In this document: positions 29,938 to 36,133 of the stretch, one piece after another
Layout: every line of letters starts with the position of its first letter
How positions within the stretch are numbered: the stretch's first letter is position 1
Origin: Salinibacterium sp. UTAS2018
GTDB lineage: Bacteria; Actinomycetota; Actinomycetes; Actinomycetales; Microbacteriaceae
Length of the DNA: 64,000 nucleotides
Assembly (NCBI RefSeq): GCF_004118935.1
Contig: NZ_CP035375.1
Span: forward strand, 2,480,001 to 2,544,000
Direction: 5' to 3'
Program-made: the position numbers and the translations under genes
The notes under the pieces: generated by a model
Database searches by the model: none
What the model was told of the DNA's origin: nothing
The model's input: the letters and a program-made list of their open reading frames with translations, nothing else

Positions 29938-31386
29938 TTACAGACCCATGAGGTCAGGTAGACCGGTGCTGAGCACCGGTATGAACGTCAGCAGCATGAG
30001 AACAGTCAGGCTCGCGACCAAGAAAGGCCAGATACCCTTCACGGCTTCACCGAACGGAACCTGCGCGATTCCGGCGGCAACGAAGAGGTCGATGCCCACC
30101 GGTGGTGTGACAAGCCCGATTGCCAGGTTGATTGTCATGACGACACCAATGGTGGTGATGTCCATTCCGAGTTCCAGCATGACCGGAACGAACAGCGGGA
30201 TAAAGAGATAGAACGCGGAGACAGCATCGAGGAACATTCCCGCGATGAGCAACATGATGTTGATCAACAGGATGATGATCACCACATTGTCTGTGAGGGA
30301 AAGCAGTGCGTCTGTTACCTGGCTGGCGATCTGATTACGCGTGATCACGTAGGCGAAAATTGTTGCCGCCGAGATGATCAACATAATGCGGCCCGCTTGG
30401 ATGCCAGCGGTGGTGAACACTCGGAAGATCCCGCTGAAGTTGAGCTTTCGGGTAACAAAAATCCCAACCAAGAGGGCATAGACAGAGGCAACAGCGGCGG
30501 ATTCCGTGGGCGTGAAGATTCCGCCGTAGATTCCACCCAGGATGATAACGGGAACGAGAAGGCCCGGAATGGCCCGAACGAACGCACGACCGATGACCGG
30601 CCACGATGCTCGCGTTCGGCGTTGCCCCACCTGTACATCGTCGGGATCAACATCAGCGGTCATGAGTACCGTTGGATTGGCCGTCGTGTAGGTAGTGGCG
30701 CCCGTTGCGGTGAGCAAGAGCTTCTTGTTCTTGCGTCCGAGAGCTTTATCGATGTGGTTCTTGGCGTTTGCTTTCGCCATTTCTGTCTCGACGGGGAGAA
30801 GGCGCGCCACGATGTAGAACGCGATCGCCATGAGAATTCCGGGCACGATACCCGCGAGGAAAAGACGCCCGATCGAGATGCGTTCGTAGTCACTCGCCAC
30901 CACGGCGAAGACGATGAACGCGATGCTGGGAGGAATGACGATTCCCATTTCGCCTGCGCTGGCAACCAACGCTGCTGCGTGACGTTTCTTGTAGCCGTGC
31001 TTCGCGAGCGCCGGAATCAAGATCGCTCCGAGCGCCGCCACGGTGGCGGGGCCCGAGCCCGAAATGGCCGAGAACAAGAGTGCCGCGAGGATGGTGGTGA
31101 GTGCGAGCCCACCCTTTTGGTGCCCCACCATCGCGTCGGCAAGTTCGATGAGCCTGCCTGAGATGCCGGTGATCTCCATGATCACGCCGGCGAGGATAAA
31201 GAACGGAATCGCCAGAAGTGTCTCGGACGATAGAGAGGCGTACATGATTCCCGCGGTGGGGAACAGTGCGTTGACGCCGTCGGCAATAACGATCGTTAGG
31301 AAGGCTGAGCCTCCCATTGCGAAGGCAACGGGGACGCCGAGGAGCAGGAGAACTAAGAATGAGCCAAAGAGTACGAATTCAACCAT
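29938..31386 (-). CDS. dctM: TRAP transporter large permease, DctM type
   Basis: A 482-residue membrane protein with about 12-13 segments. It begins FVLFGSFLVLLLLGVPVAFA, and SGSGPATVAALGAIL and PTESAAVASVYALLVG are DctM hallmarks. It is about 50 residues longer than common DctM proteins; the surplus is a polar loop in the middle (near KNHIDKALGRKNKKLLL through VGQRRTRASW). AAGGGAG precedes the ATG. It is the transport channel, driven by the sodium gradient in studied members. Confidence 0.93.
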   Translation of the reverse strand: MVEFVLFGSFLVLLLLGVPVAFAMGGSAFLTIVIADGVNALFPTAGIMYASLSSETLLAIPFFILAGVIMEITGISGRLIELADAMVGHQKGGLALTTILAALLFSAISGSGPATVAALGAILIPALAKHGYKKRHAAALVASAGEMGIVIPPSIAFIVFAVVASDYERISIGRLFLAGIVPGILMAIAFYIVARLLPVETEMAKANAKNHIDKALGRKNKKLLLTATGATTYTTANPTVLMTADVDPDDVQVGQRRTRASWPVIGRAFVRAIPGLLVPVIILGGIYGGIFTPTESAAVASVYALLVGIFVTRKLNFSGIFRVFTTAGIQAGRIMLIISAATIFAYVITRNQIASQVTDALLSLTDNVVIIILLINIMLLIAGMFLDAVSAFYLFIPLFVPVMLELGMDITTIGVVMTINLAIGLVTPPVGIDLFVAAGIAQVPFGEAVKGIWPFLVASLTVLMLLTFIPVLSTGLPDLMGL

Positions 31387-31390
31387 GGGG

Positions 31391-31888
31391 TCAGACTCCC
31401 TTGAGTTCGAGTGGCGCTTCGGTCTGTTTGTTGAGAAGCTCGCGCATGACAACCTGAACGGTCCGTAGCGCGCCGAGGGCAGCGCCGAATGGCAGCGACA
31501 TCGAGAAGATCCATTGTGGAACCCCGAGCGCGAACGTGAGTCGACCAGATTCCAGCTGCTTCATTGCCATGTCAAAGCCCAACCAGAGCAGCAATAGATA
31601 GAACGCCAGCATTGCCAGCGCAATGATCACAATGACCACCTTGCGCGGGATGCCGTGGGTTGAGTCCTTGAGGAGCGTGAAACCCGGGTGGGTGCCGAGA
31701 CGCACTGCTGCGGCGGCCCCCACCAGGGTGAGCAGAACGGCCAGGTTCACGACCAGCTCTGCTGTGTACGCGATCGATGCGTGCAGCAAATAGCGGCTGA
31801 CTACATTGAAAAACGCGAGGAGGGTGATGGCTGAGAACGCGACCGCAATGATCGTGTTCTCAGCCCCCGTGAGGATTTTGTCGAACAT
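31391..31888 (-). CDS. dctQ: TRAP transporter small permease, DctQ type
   Basis: A 165-residue protein with four membrane segments. NVVSRYLLHASIAYTAEL in segment 2 is the typical DctQ pattern. It ends four bases before the DctM start. With DctM and DctP it makes a tripartite importer for an organic acid. Confidence 0.92.
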   Translation of the reverse strand: MFDKILTGAENTIIAVAFSAITLLAFFNVVSRYLLHASIAYTAELVVNLAVLLTLVGAAAAVRLGTHPGFTLLKDSTHGIPRKVVIVIIALAMLAFYLLLLWLGFDMAMKQLESGRLTFALGVPQWIFSMSLPFGAALGALRTVQVVMRELLNKQTEAPLELKGV

Positions 31889-31900
31889 GAGTGGAAGGAA

Positions 31901-32914
31901 CTATTCCGGGCGAACCGCAGCGAGCAGTTCGGGAGTCCACGCATCTGTGAATTCGTCGTAGACCGGAGCCATTGCGTCCGTGAAGACGGCGAGCTGCGAG
32001 GCGGAGAGTTCCGAAACCGTCATGATTTCAGACATTTCAGCAAGCTGCTCGGCTTCGCGGGCACGGTTTTCGCTCTTCTGAACTTCGTTTGCCTCGGCAG
32101 CAGCCATTTCGACCAGCGCCTTGTCGTCGTCGCTCAAAGCGTCGTACATGTCCTTGTTCATACCGAGCATGAGCGGGTCGTAGATGTAGTTCCACACTGA
32201 CATGTAGTCCTGAACCTCGGTGAGGCCGTTGGAGTAGATGACGTCGTAGGGGTTCTCTTGACCATCGATCGTTCCGGTCTGCAGCGAGGTGAATACCTCG
32301 CTGAAGTTCATGGAGACGGGGTCGGCGCCGAGTTCCTTGAAGATGCTGAGGAAGAGGCTTGAGCCGGGCACGCGGAACTTCAGGCCGTCAAGGTCGTCGG
32401 GAGCGAGGATCTCGTGCTTGCTGTTGGTGATCTGGCGGAAGCCGGATTCACCAAAACCGAGCAGCTGCACGTTGAACTCTGCAGAAAGCTCCTTATACGC
32501 GTCGAGGGCACCGGCTTCGATCGCGGCATCTGCAGTTTCGTAGCTGTCGTAAAGGAAGGGAGCGTTGATCGTGCCGAAGCGAGGGTCAATTCCCGAGTAG
32601 ATGATCGTGGAGTTGTAGGAGAACGCCTTGTCGCCGTTCATGAGCTGTTCGACGCCGGCCGCAGAATCTCCACCCGAAAGTTGTTCGTTGGTGAAGATGT
32701 TGACCTTGATGCGTCCGTCGCTCTCCTCGTCGAGGACTTCGGCGAAACGTTCGGCGCCGGCATTCCAGCTGGACTTGTCGCTGACGGTGATGGTGAAGTC
32801 CCAGTCGTACGACGGCAAACCTGAGTCGCTGCCCGAGTCAGACGACCCGGTGCTGCAGCCGGTAAGAACCAGGGCTAGCCCCAGTGTCGAAGCGGCGATT
32901 TTGACAAACTTCAT
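31901..32914 (-). CDS. dctP: TRAP transporter substrate-binding lipoprotein, DctP type
   Basis: A 337-residue binding protein. Residues 1-20 are a lipoprotein signal with lipobox LTGC, followed by a Ser/Asp-rich tether. The carboxylate-binding Arg of the family is seen in DLDGLKFRVPGS, and the FTSLQTGTIDGQENP segment is standard. GGAGGAG site precedes the ATG. First gene of the operon dctP-dctQ-dctM-SDR. Ligand is an unknown organic acid. Confidence 0.94.
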   Translation of the reverse strand: MKFVKIAASTLGLALVLTGCSTGSSDSGSDSGLPSYDWDFTITVSDKSSWNAGAERFAEVLDEESDGRIKVNIFTNEQLSGGDSAAGVEQLMNGDKAFSYNSTIIYSGIDPRFGTINAPFLYDSYETADAAIEAGALDAYKELSAEFNVQLLGFGESGFRQITNSKHEILAPDDLDGLKFRVPGSSLFLSIFKELGADPVSMNFSEVFTSLQTGTIDGQENPYDVIYSNGLTEVQDYMSVWNYIYDPLMLGMNKDMYDALSDDDKALVEMAAAEANEVQKSENRAREAEQLAEMSEIMTVSELSASQLAVFTDAMAPVYDEFTDAWTPELLAAVRPE

Positions 32915-33024
32915 TTCTCCTCCTTGAGTGTTGAAGCCAACCTGACCGACCTCACTTTTGAGGAGGGCCCGTGGTGGGGCGCCCGCTATTCATCAGTTCG
33001 ATGGTTTCCGGTGCGCTGCGAACC

Positions 33025-33088
33025 ATTATGCACGAATCTGGTAATACCAGTGACATCCGACCTAAAAAATCTCCACCGTAATACCAAC
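33025..33088 (-). promoter_or_regulatory. dctP promoter with TGGT-N3-ACCA operator and a weaker second site
   Basis: TGGT-AAT-ACCA lies at 33039-33049, flanked by C and G to make a 13-bp dyad. On the minus strand a CATAAT -10 (33025-33030) follows about eight bases further on, so the operator covers the spacer or -35. A second, imperfect copy (CGT-AAT-ACCA) is near 33077-33086. Confidence 0.65.
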
Positions 33089-33206
33089 GGGGGCCGGGCA
33101 AGTCTCCTCGTTGCGGGGGCGGATCGGGGCCTGCCGTTCGAAGAAATGTCGGGGGTCACGAGTAGATTTAAATAAAGTTGGCCGACACGCCGCGACACTA
33201 CATCTG

Positions 33207-33239
33207 GGGTAATGACATGGGTGTCATTACCCATATATA
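33207..33239 (+). promoter_or_regulatory. Promoter overlapped by a perfect 11-bp dyad, upstream of a tiny peptide gene
   Basis: GGGTAATGACA (33207-33217) and TGTCATTACCC (33222-33232) are perfect arms with a 4-base centre. ATGACA at 33212-33217 resembles -35 and TATATA at 33234-33239 resembles -10, with 16 bases between, so the dyad covers the -35 and spacer. It is the site of a dimeric regulator, which I cannot identify in the window. Confidence 0.7.
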
Positions 33240-33294
33240 GTGAAATCTCCGACAAACCGCCGGTAAACTTCGAGAAGACTTTAAGGAGGTTCGA

Positions 33295-33378
33295 ATGGAT
33301 AACGAAAACGACACTGTTGGCGGATACGCAATTCCCGTCGACCCAATGGATCTTCTGCAGTGCGACAGCTGCCAGTAA
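33295..33378 (+). CDS. 27-residue acidic peptide with C-terminal CxxC
   Basis: ATG at 33295 follows AAGGAGGT by four bases, about the best Shine-Dalgarno in the window. The product is 27 residues: an acidic, Asn-rich front (DNENDTVGG), then YAIPVDPMDLLQ and the ending CDSCQ. The stop lies in a 16-bp palindrome at 33373-33388. With its own regulated promoter and own terminator it looks like a real small gene. The layout of leader plus short Cys-containing end recalls precursor peptides of modified natural products, but no maturation enzyme is nearby. Family not recognised. Confidence 0.7.
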   Translation: MDNENDTVGGYAIPVDPMDLLQCDSCQ

Positions 33379-33410
33379 AAATTTACTGAGCTAACGCCTC
33401 ACAGAACTCC

Positions 33411-33448
33411 TGAAGCCCCGGCAGACCTTACGGTCTCCCGGGGCTTCA
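33411..33448 (+). terminator. Long terminator hairpin after the peptide gene
   Basis: TGAAGCCCCGG-C-AGACC pairs with GGTCT-C-CCGGGGCTTCA around a TTAC loop: 16 pairs with one C-C mismatch, then CTCTTTAA. It isolates the peptide unit from the hadA-like gene downstream. Confidence 0.85.
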
Positions 33449-33492
33449 CTCTTTAACGTGCAGAACGCTCAACACTGCCTAAACTGGTACCC

Positions 33493-33939
33493 GTGCCAGT
33501 GAATAAAGAACTAGAAGGTCGGGTCTTCCCGCCCACCACGCCATATCTTGTCGGGCGCGAAAAAGTACGCGAGTTTGCTCGTGCAGTTTTCGCCCAAAGC
33601 CCCCTCAATCACGATCCTGAGGCGGCCAAAGCAGCAGGTTATGCGGATGTCGTCGCACCGCCCACCTTCGCCGTCGTCATCCAAGAAGCAGGCCTTGCCC
33701 TCATGCTGGCCGCCCCCGACACCGGCATCGACTTCTCCCGCATCGTGCACGGAGAACAGAAATTTCGCTACACGCGGCCGATCGTCGCCGGTGACGAGCT
33801 CACCGCCATCCTCACTGTCACGAGCATCAAATCGCTCGGTGGCAACGACATGATCACCGCCGACACCGCCATTAGTGATGCCGAAGGCAACCACGTCGTC
33901 ACCGCAACCTCCGTACTCGTCATGAGAGGCACAGAATGA
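33493..33939 (+). CDS. MaoC-family dehydratase N-terminal protein (HadA/HadC type)
   Basis: A 148-residue hot-dog-fold protein. GREKVREFARAVF, the YADVVAPPTFAVVI strand and VHGEQKFRYTRPIVAGDEL match the structural subunit of the mycobacterial (3R)-hydroxyacyl-ACP dehydratase. The family partner with the catalytic residues is the next gene, which overlaps by four bases. GTG start. Expected role is in fatty acid chain elongation. Confidence 0.9.
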   Translation: MPVNKELEGRVFPPTTPYLVGREKVREFARAVFAQSPLNHDPEAAKAAGYADVVAPPTFAVVIQEAGLALMLAAPDTGIDFSRIVHGEQKFRYTRPIVAGDELTAILTVTSIKSLGGNDMITADTAISDAEGNHVVTATSVLVMRGTE

Positions 33940-34343
33940 GCGACCTCACCGTCGGGCAAGAACTCATCACCGGCAAAGTCACCCTCACCCGCTTCTCGCT
34001 CGTGCGCTACGCGGGAGCATCCGGAGACTTCAACCCCATCCACTACCGTGACGACGTCGCGAAGTCAGTCGGTCTGCCCGGCGTCCTCGCCCACGGCATG
34101 CTCACGATGGGTCTCGCCGTTCAGCCCGTCATCGATTGGATGGATGGCCGCGGCGAAGTTGTCGAATACGGTGTGCGCTTCACGCGCCCCGTCGTCGTTG
34201 ACGGCAACGGTGGAATCACTGTCAGCGTCACCGCCAAAGTCGGCGCCATCGAAGACGATGTAACTCGCATCGATCTCACCGTCAGTGCCGCCAACCAGAC
34301 CGTGCTCGGAAAATCACAAGTGAGGGTCAAACTCAACAAATGA
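33936..34343 (+). CDS. MaoC-family dehydratase (HadB type)
   Basis: A 135-residue catalytic hot-dog subunit. The hydratase-2 motif is YAGASGDFNPIHYRDD, with the catalytic Asp and His, followed by LPGVLAHGMLTMG. It overlaps the upstream subunit and murB (ATGA at both ends), so the three are translated as one unit. This gene trio is common in actinobacteria. Confidence 0.93.
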   Translation: MSDLTVGQELITGKVTLTRFSLVRYAGASGDFNPIHYRDDVAKSVGLPGVLAHGMLTMGLAVQPVIDWMDGRGEVVEYGVRFTRPVVVDGNGGITVSVTAKVGAIEDDVTRIDLTVSAANQTVLGKSQVRVKLNK

Positions 34344-35473
34344 CCGAAACCGCCCCCAGCGAAAGCACCGCGCCGCAGTACAACGTGTCGCTCGCCGACC
34401 TCACTACCATCAAGGTAGGAGGGCCGGCGCACACGTTGCTTCGTCCCGCCTCCGAGAAAGAGTTGCTCGCGACTATGCGAGACGTGTGGGCCCGAGGTGA
34501 CGAATGGCTGCTCATTGGGGGCGGCTCCAACTTGGTCATTAGCGATGAAGGATTCGATGGCACCGTCATTCACATCGCTACCCGCGGCATCCAGCTCGTC
34601 TCCCAGACCGAGACCTCGCTCACCCTTCGCGTGCAAGCCGGAGAGCCGTGGGACGGCCTGGTCGCGCGCCTCGTTTCGCGTGGCTGGGCAGGACTCGAAG
34701 CGCTCAGTGGCATTCCCGGATCGGTGGGCGCTGCGCCCATCCAGAACATCGGCGCCTACGGCCAAGAAGTTGCCAGTGTGCTCGACGGCATCGACTTTCT
34801 CGACTACGACAACAGCGAATTCGTTCACCTCTCGACCACCGAACTCGAGCTGGGGTACCGCAACTCAGTGATCAAAGAGGGGCGCGCCGGGGTCGTCCTC
34901 GCCGTGTATCTGACCCTCACGGCCTCGCCCGAAAGCACCGTGCAGTATCAACAGCTCGCCACCGCGCTCGGCGTGAACGTCGGCGACCGCGTACCCGTGC
35001 AACAGGTGCGCGACACCGTGCTCGCCCTCCGAGCCTCCAAAGCCATGGTGCTCGACCCCAACGAGCCAGACTCAGCCAGTTGTGGTTCGTTCTTCACCAA
35101 CCCGATCGTGCCCGAACATATCGCCCGTGCTCTTCCGGCGGATGCCCCCCGCTGGGTCATCGACGATGATCCGGTTACCGACGTTGTGGTTCCGCTCGGC
35201 CAAGAACCAGCACCGCCGCCCGCGCCCAAGCCGCGCCTCGTCAAACTCAGCGCAGCTTGGCTCATCGAGAATGCTGGCGTCAAGAAGGGCTTCAGATTGC
35301 CCGGCTCACGCGCGGCCGTCTCCACTAAGCACAGCTTGGCGATCGTCAACCGCACCGGTGCCGACGCCGCAGAGGTAGCAGAGCTCGCCCGCTACATCGG
35401 GGCGTGCGTGCTTAGCCGCTACGGCATCCACTTGCAGCCCGAGCCGGTCGCTGTTGGAGTTGAGCTGGCCTAG
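34340..35473 (+). CDS. murB: UDP-N-acetylmuramate dehydrogenase MurB
   Basis: A 377-residue flavoenzyme that reduces UDP-GlcNAc-enolpyruvate with NADPH to UDP-MurNAc in peptidoglycan synthesis. FAD motif LLIGGGSNLVISDEGF, GIPGSVGAAPIQNIGAYG, substrate loop YRNSVIK, catalytic Ser in SASCGSFFTNPIV and a C-terminal EPVAVGVEL. A Pro/Ala-rich insert (QEPAPPPAPKPR) splits the C-terminal domain, as in other actinobacteria. Confidence 0.96.
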   Translation: MTETAPSESTAPQYNVSLADLTTIKVGGPAHTLLRPASEKELLATMRDVWARGDEWLLIGGGSNLVISDEGFDGTVIHIATRGIQLVSQTETSLTLRVQAGEPWDGLVARLVSRGWAGLEALSGIPGSVGAAPIQNIGAYGQEVASVLDGIDFLDYDNSEFVHLSTTELELGYRNSVIKEGRAGVVLAVYLTLTASPESTVQYQQLATALGVNVGDRVPVQQVRDTVLALRASKAMVLDPNEPDSASCGSFFTNPIVPEHIARALPADAPRWVIDDDPVTDVVVPLGQEPAPPPAPKPRLVKLSAAWLIENAGVKKGFRLPGSRAAVSTKHSLAIVNRTGADAAEVAELARYIGACVLSRYGIHLQPEPVAVGVELA

Positions 35474-35505
35474 CGGTCACATTGGTCCAGCGGCCACATT
35501 GCCCT
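35472..35505. repeat. Two 17-bp tandem copies at the murB stop
   Basis: AGCGG(T/C)CACATTG occurs at 35472-35484 and 35489-35501, a 17-base period. The first copy includes the murB stop. The next gene is convergent and begins its stop at 35504. Confidence 0.7.
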
Positions 35506-36133
35506 AGTGGGTGCGGGGCAGCAGCCCCAACTCCATCGCCTTCGTCACCGCCCGCGTGCGATCTTTCACGTCGAGCTTCTCGAACACGTGGATGAGGTGG
35601 GTCTTCACGGTCGCCTCGCTCACGAACAAAGCGGCGGCGACCTTTCGGTTGCTATTGCCCGCTGCCACGAGAGCGAGCACTTGAGTTTCACGATCGCTCA
35701 GCGACACCTTCGCGGGTTCGCGCATGCGGTTCACGAGCAGCGCCGCAATAGAGGGGGCGAGCGCAACCTCGCCGCGGGCGACTGAACGCAGCCCCGCCAA
35801 AATCTCGTCCTCGGGTGCCGCCTTCAGCAGGTAGCCACTCGCGCCCGCCTCAATCGCAGTGAGAATGTTCTCGTCTGATTCGTAGGTCGTGAGAATGAGC
35901 ACGCGCACGTCGGGGCGTGCGGCGACGAGCTGCGCGGTTGCCTCGGCGCCTCCGAGGCCGGGCATGCGCAAATCCATGAGCACGACGTCGGGGGAGAGCT
36001 GCGTGGCCAAGGTGACCGCCTGGGTGCCGTCGCTGGCTTCGCCGACGACTTCGATGTCATCCGCTGAGCTCAGTAGCCCAACGATTCCACTGCGAACGAT
36101 GGGATGATCGTCGGCCACCACAACACGGATCAT
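35504..36133 (-). CDS. Response regulator, NarL/LuxR type
   Basis: A 209-residue regulator. The receiver holds VVADDHPIVRSG and phospho-acceptor Asp in DVVLMDLRMPG; the C-terminal LuxR HTH is LSDRETQVLALVAAGNSNRK through VSEATVKTHLIHVFEKL. Its start overlaps the kinase stop. It is the last gene of an operon ATPase-permease-kinase-regulator. Confidence 0.95.
   Translation of the reverse strand: MIRVVVADDHPIVRSGIVGLLSSADDIEVVGEASDGTQAVTLATQLSPDVVLMDLRMPGLGGAEATAQLVAARPDVRVLILTTYESDENILTAIEAGASGYLLKAAPEDEILAGLRSVARGEVALAPSIAALLVNRMREPAKVSLSDRETQVLALVAAGNSNRKVAAALFVSEATVKTHLIHVFEKLDVKDRTRAVTKAMELGLLPRTH

Follow-up and report, generated by a model that had tools for sequence, protein, structure and literature searches.

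In class I ribonucleotide reductase (RNR), the enzyme that sets the supply of DNA precursors, a flexible tail of NrdA bears a cysteine pair that, once a turnover is complete, reduces the active-site disulfide; thioredoxin or glutaredoxin in turn re-reduces this tail. The genes-in-pieces NrdA of T4-like phages is split within the enzyme body, the split being caused by a homing endonuclease. According to the accessible part of PMC9531940, a C-terminal CXXC is present in 1737 of 2022 class I sequences. For the split class II enzyme NrdJa/NrdJb of Pseudomonas aeruginosa, the part of the source available to us describes a second chain that brings the C-terminal cysteines and whose main role, in the authors' opinion, is thiol-disulfide exchange (PMC4520616); NrdJb has folded domains, as given in the available part of PMC9669993. 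Phage T4 thioredoxin is presented as a phage-supplied electron carrier for RNR in the accessible text of PMC6459318, and that of PMC12051234 reports NrdR binding to be strongest at a box spacing of 15–17 bp. PMC6459318 also states that DTT can reduce the active site directly, TCEP acting only through the C-terminal cysteines. Our literature search, which covered mostly literature outside subscription and is thus weak evidence of novelty, brought up no paper in which we recognised a class I RNR tail detached from its enzyme.

The window, by which we mean the whole stretch of 64,000 nucleotides of Salinibacterium sp. UTAS2018 that was analysed, carries a 27-codon open reading frame (ORF) that is very probably a detached C-terminal redox tail of the class I RNR large subunit, acting in trans and controlled together with RNR. 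The observations that carry this assignment are the homology to fused tails, the loss of the tail from NrdA, the co-occurrence of the two genes, an operator sequence common to both, purifying selection, and genomes in which the only tail gene is remote from nrdA. The features of the unit and of its upstream region are as follows.

33195..33210, + strand: NrdR box 1, ACACTACATCTGGGGT; 12/16 to the NrdR-box consensus; the box pair scores 36.4 bits by the nrdA-promoter matrix
33207..33232, no strand assigned: perfect 11-bp dyad, arms GGGTAATGACA (33207-33217) and TGTCATTACCC (33222-33232), read directly from the sequence
33212..33241, + strand: promoter, -35 ATGACA at 33212-33217 and -10 TATAGT at 33236-33241; 18-base spacer, 10/12 matches
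33228..33243, + strand: NrdR box 2, TACCCATATATAGTGA; 11/16 to the same consensus; 17 bp after box 1, overlapping the -10
33283..33290, + strand: ribosome-binding site AAGGAGGT; a similar site in 29/29 orthologues (loose pattern)
33295..33378, + strand: stand-alone RNR redox tail ORF, 27 codons, MDNENDTVGGYAIPVDPMDLLQCDSCQ; assigned by homology, selection and co-occurrence
33411..33448, + strand: hairpin, probable terminator, -30.6 kcal/mol; a hairpin in 29/29 orthologues

This unit of promoter, dyad, ribosome site, ORF and hairpin is confirmed as real. A sequence-only reading had proposed a near-consensus promoter overlapped by a perfect 11-bp dyad, a ribosome site and a 27-codon gene ending in CDSCQ, and all of them are present at the place it gave; the promoter scan found one promoter, compared with a mean of 0.3 in shuffled sequences, and the -35 lies inside the dyad. 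The 38-base terminator hairpin of the same reading is accepted as a hairpin, on its folding energy and its presence in all 29 orthologues, whereas its standing as a terminator is less clear, the T tract after it being weak (CTCTTTAA) and the terminator scan of the window not listing it. The folding z-score of 33230-33460 was -4.58. A search of 31000-36000 against Rfam at E<=1 gave no match, and NCBIfam matched neither the 27-residue peptide nor the nrdA-linked peptide. The CDSCQ end places a CxxC at or next to the C-terminus. The three scanned neighbours of the gene are a TRAP solute-binding protein (DctP) and two hydratases of MaoC/FAS1_DH type (FAS1_DH_region and MaoC_dehydratas).

The 27-codon reading frame is under strong purifying selection. 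The exact 27-codon pattern was found at 29 of 30 orthologous loci, the remaining one (L030) being one codon longer. Among the 25 distinct sequences, variable columns at codon positions 1, 2 and 3 numbered 9, 3 and 19 of 27, and pN/pS was 0.166 in the true frame versus 1.6 and 6.3 in the two shifted frames; for codons 13-27 it was 0.13. The hairpins 3' of the orthologous ORFs had energies of -24.6 to -36.5 kcal/mol (29/29), and a HadA homologue was present within 27 of the 30 three-kilobase stretches around the orthologues. The sequence-only reading had named codon drift as the outcome that would speak against the gene; this check was run and no drift was seen. Its view that such an organisation lies beyond chance agrees with the constant 27-codon form, the pN/pS value and the conserved ribosome site and hairpin, and its picture of a self-contained regulated unit is upheld, as is a selected peptide.

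A paralogue with the same YxVPVDPMDxLQCDSCQ end lies elsewhere in this genome, flanked by its nrdA and nrdB genes. This genome has four tail copies, namely the stand-alone gene of the window, a copy at C1:2679130 directly upstream of a gene starting MGILGTGLQDGLLLKPI, and a divergent pair at C1:1297254 and 1297755. It has one RNR alpha match (PF02867) and one beta match (PF00268), with the linked tail ORF between them; because the alpha subunit is NF005101 (1601.9 bits) and is accompanied by a PF00268 beta subunit, a split of the class II NrdJa/NrdJb type was rejected. The peptide was searched for in 149 related genomes at E<=1 and found in 67, of which 55 were strong matches in the family of the window, four belonged to another family (f10; E ~1e-6 to 2e-5) and eight were weak (E 0.18-0.81). 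Residues P, D, P, C and C are invariant across 12 aligned tails, and most genomes with the tail keep at least two copies.

The NrdA of this genome, to which NrdA in named Salinibacterium records is 96-98% identical, has cysteines at 227, 305, 441 and 456 only, and its C-terminal region, which ends ARRGFGGFAKKAE, has none. In an alignment with NrdA of P. aeruginosa (5im3), residues 227, 441 and 456 fall opposite cysteines, which we take to be those of the active site. We surveyed 84 alpha-subunit loci, 52 of which are NrdA-type members of the window's family; in 51 of these 52 there is no cysteine after the TTYYLHMKPRH motif, the frame of the remaining one (G035) being disrupted. At 49 of the 52 loci the interval from nrdA to nrdB holds a tail ORF, and a further scan found one in G035 as well. 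Since the peptide has its own gene and NrdA ends before the tail, the peptide is not a covalent part of the large subunit.

The tail sequence is also the C-terminus of fused NrdA proteins, ..CPVDPMEALQCESCQ, in Demequina and f10 genomes. Among 80 named NrdA loci, 69 were split with a linked tail and seven were fused (five Demequina, one Demequinaceae and one other actinomycete), while two had neither in the stretch examined, one was cut and one was not located. A class-wide search for split tails matched 29 of 394 genomes, and fused frames were found in further actinobacteria; short-frame matches in G359 and G234 were rejected as further split tails, NrdA being cut by contig ends there. Split NrdA chains stop shortly after an (R/K)(R/K)GFG linker motif, and repeats of this motif are carried by the fused linkers, so that the split NrdA ends just past a linker motif that existed already. 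The split C-termini examined (L031, L056-L104) keep a basic (R/K)(R/K)GFG(F)GG near their new end, which in the fused relatives stands in the linker; it is possibly a docking site for the peptide. The outgroup pattern, taken without a tree, suggests that fusion is the ancestral state. The best reading is that the peptide descends from the NrdA tail and probably works like it, yet is not part of the NrdA chain.

Co-occurrence was surveyed in 398 genomes of the family, with E<=1e-3 for tail alignment A1 and E<=1e-150 for this NrdA. The tail was found in 178 genomes and this NrdA in 170, all 170 of which carry the tail gene; it is absent from 220 of the 228 genomes that lack this NrdA. The eight genomes with a tail and without this NrdA are seven incomplete or fragmented assemblies (G588, G643, G717, G755, G757, G786 and G800) and G472. 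The tail of G472 was rejected as an intact copy and is a decayed one (L166, near 5040), with a stop just upstream, no start, and DSM for DPM. No strong tail match was obtained in 35 of 90 family members, and one alpha locus from each of 25 of them was in all cases NrdE with a fused CVSC(M/T)L end. One such locus (L072) belongs to a member of the window's own genus (G020), where NrdE ends in a fused CVSCML and a tail gene is lacking; as far as its genes tell, this genome has naturally exchanged one RNR type for another and lost the peptide. In two genomes, G041 and G079, no tail was found between nrdA and nrdB; each has a single tail gene with an NrdR box pair, which like that of the window is a neighbour of hadA/hadB, and any tail in these genomes must therefore act in trans.

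We next compare the upstream region with the nrdA promoters. Paired NrdR boxes over the threshold were found at 49 of 55 NrdA-type loci, 16 bp apart in 44 and 17 bp apart in five. An operator matrix was built from 48 of the nrdA promoters, with the Salinibacterium genome itself left out; against the aforementioned 36.4 bits for the pair at 33195 with its 17-bp spacer, the best unrelated site on both strands of the 64 kb scored -6.1 bits, and the site at 33195 read backwards scored 16.2 bits. The genome encodes one NrdR over the cut-off (TIGR00244, 152.5 bits; cut-off 124.65). By a crude consensus, a box pair at 10+10 or better was present at 25 of the 30 stand-alone loci, always with a 17-bp spacer, and five were below this level; a crude-consensus pair was not seen at the linked, integrated-element, plasmid and phage tail copies. 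Both points tell against the proposed reading. From the box pair and the encoded NrdR, the stand-alone tail gene is a putative member of the NrdR regulon. The perfect dyad of the window lies in and around the spacer between both boxes. Upstream at all 30 stand-alone loci there is a match to the loose pattern ATGACA..TGT(C/G)AT, and in 23 of them its TGTCAT arm is perfect; eight nrdA spacers examined did not show it. This dyad between the boxes might serve as another operator or as the -35 of a divergent promoter.

Tail genes have also been found on mobile elements. The divergent pair of the Salinibacterium genome lies in an integrated element (L032, C1:1291500-1303500) together with SRAP, DprA-like, ParA and tyrosine integrase genes, and similar divergent pairs were seen in L033 and L035. 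With tblastn the tail was found in 19 of 72,556 plasmid records, all of Clavibacter, Leifsonia or Gryllotalpicola, and in six of 50,697 phage records with E values of 0.02 to 2, which are weak alone, although the reading frames are clear. The phages are Pontimonas phage phiPsal1, Clavibacter phages CMP1 and CN1A (two records each) and Pseudanabaena phage Pan2. The copy of Pan2 (L139, 5993-6076) stands under a cyanobacterial host label, yet is a tail typical of Microbacteriaceae RNR, and the label may be doubtful. A pattern scan of IMG/VR matched at least 120 stretches. The 80 loci kept all end in the tail; the frame is 26 to 350 codons long in 79 of them, and the remaining one (L283) is truncated by the end of its contig. 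When these 80 loci were searched by tblastn with five RNR proteins, only one matched (NrdB in L276), and thus no fusion to NrdA was seen. In 20 whole phage or viral records, many of which may be fragments, PF02867 was found in none and PF00268 in one. Since PF02867 is absent from the records searched, the phage tails seem to serve the NrdA of the host. Genes for M23-type endolysins stand close to several of the phage tails. The region L276 245-3834 of viral record G532 (76,977 bases), the record with PF00268, has thyX, the tail, an ORF of unassigned product and nrdB, with no NrdA match; its NrdB is 79% identical to the host-type NrdB, and one ORF of L276 looks intein-like by eye. This phage seems, by its gene content, to supply parts for the host enzyme. 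Such genes are easily overlooked: of four phage copies examined three were unannotated and one was a 'hypothetical protein', and a 33-residue tail on a plasmid (L140, 5983-6084, NZ_CP065038.1) is annotated as ribonucleotide-diphosphate reductase subunit beta, which is a misnomer.

Putting these results together, we infer expression, NrdR binding, peptide binding, electron transfer and a docking site for the tail peptide. In Microbacteriaceae with this NrdA, two kinds of gene would encode the tail as a separate peptide some 21-40 residues long, one set between nrdA and nrdB and, as in the window, another standing alone. Both the latter and nrdA would be under repression by NrdR, and falling dNTPs would raise the levels of tail and enzyme alike. 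The free peptide would then act as a small, exchangeable electron carrier from thioredoxin to the NrdA active site in trans, its acidic N-terminal half perhaps docking on the basic RRGFGG end of NrdA, and copies on mobile elements would raise the RNR throughput of the host. As the redox partner we rejected NrdH, a likely candidate, since its only match in the genome was 21.6 bits, below the cut-off of 85.75, a point that tells against the proposed reading; seven of eight matches to thioredoxin-fold proteins in the genome were over the cut-off. The peptide itself was rejected as a thioredoxin or NrdH redoxin, having 27 residues and no NCBIfam match. In wider terms, it is rather likely that the free peptide of about 25 residues is an interchangeable catalytic arm, supplied from several host loci of which one belongs to the NrdR regulon, and that plasmid and phage copies fuel the host NrdA and thereby raise or secure dNTPs.

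Three other explanations were weighed against a tail acting in trans. The tail might still be attached, if ribosomal frameshifting joined NrdA and the linked tail and the stand-alone copy were a minor or regulatory duplicate. The linked tail is indeed in the -1 frame relative to nrdA in most genomes (offsets of -4, -1 or +2), which keeps some room for a frameshift fusion of the linked copy; however, 43 of 49 linked tails have a start codon at -4 to +2 from the nrdA stop, the arrangement seen in translational coupling; other frames are used by six or more linked tails (G019, G054, G058, G070, G072 and G078), and ahead of its start the tail frame of G083 and G054 stays open for no more than a few codons, if any. 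Two genomes lack a linked tail, as noted above, and the stand-alone copy in the window is equipped with a promoter, a ribosome site and a start of its own; taken together, this makes frameshifting very improbable.

It is very unlikely that the free tail is instead an inhibitor or regulator of RNR, which competes at the active site or with NrdB and supplies no electrons. Free peptides from RNR subunits, such as the C-terminus of NrdB, are able to block assembly, and extra copies beside the linked tail would suit such a role; but the tail is kept in every genome with this NrdA although NrdA has lost its own, the nrdA operator is shared by the stand-alone copy, so that induction with the enzyme is expected, and phages and plasmids, which a lower dNTP supply would not help, carry the tail. 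A peptide that is matured into a modified product, acts as a secreted signal or senses metal would be small and conserved, with its own promoter and hairpin and a CxxC end, as is the case here, and these roles were among those offered by the sequence-only reading. We hold them to be extremely unlikely, because paralogues stand in nrdAB operons, homologues are fused to NrdA, and the tail occurs with this NrdA and not without it. A RiPP precursor was rejected, with no dedicated modifying enzyme among the three scanned neighbours; the peptide is homologous to the RNR tail, and the idea of a modified product is not supported. Nor is the signal, in view of the paralogue between nrdA and nrdB and a promoter matching the nrdA operator. 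Of the proposed metal- or redox-sensing peptide, the redox part came near the mark, the metal sensor being unsupported, and the interpretation given by the sequence-only reading is, as a whole, partly supported.

If the detached redox tail is as we propose, the swinging tail of RNR need not be tethered, and NrdA proteins without C-terminal cysteines are explained. Adding or withholding a synthetic peptide would then be a simple handle on RNR turnover. By carrying the tail, phages and plasmids would draw on the nucleotide synthesis of their host in a manner new for mobile elements; the gene would rank among the smallest phage-borne metabolic genes, and its product would be a redox tail that genomes share in trans.

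In comparison with the known systems, the peptide resembles the fused CxxC tail of class I NrdA/NrdE in that its sequence equals the tail of Demequina NrdA and its CxxC stands at the extreme C-terminus, and differs from it in being a separate peptide with its own gene, also unlinked to nrdA. The NrdA of T4-like phages is likewise encoded in separate pieces, but the body is split there and no separate redox tail is made. T4 thioredoxin, as far as the accessible part of its source describes it, is a folded redoxin working with a phage RNR, whereas here the tail alone is carried and none of the 20 phage or viral records has PF02867. As in the NrdR regulon described in the accessible part of PMC12051234, the gene has an upstream box pair, here with a 17-bp spacer, and NrdR in the genome; unlike that regulon as presented there, it encodes a micropeptide, stands apart from nrdAB and carries an additional dyad within the box spacer. 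By analogy, and within the available parts of its sources, split NrdJa/NrdJb is the closest precedent for a peptide in trans; that enzyme is class II and B12-dependent, while the system described here is class I, with tails of about 21-40 residues encoded in several copies and on mobile elements too.
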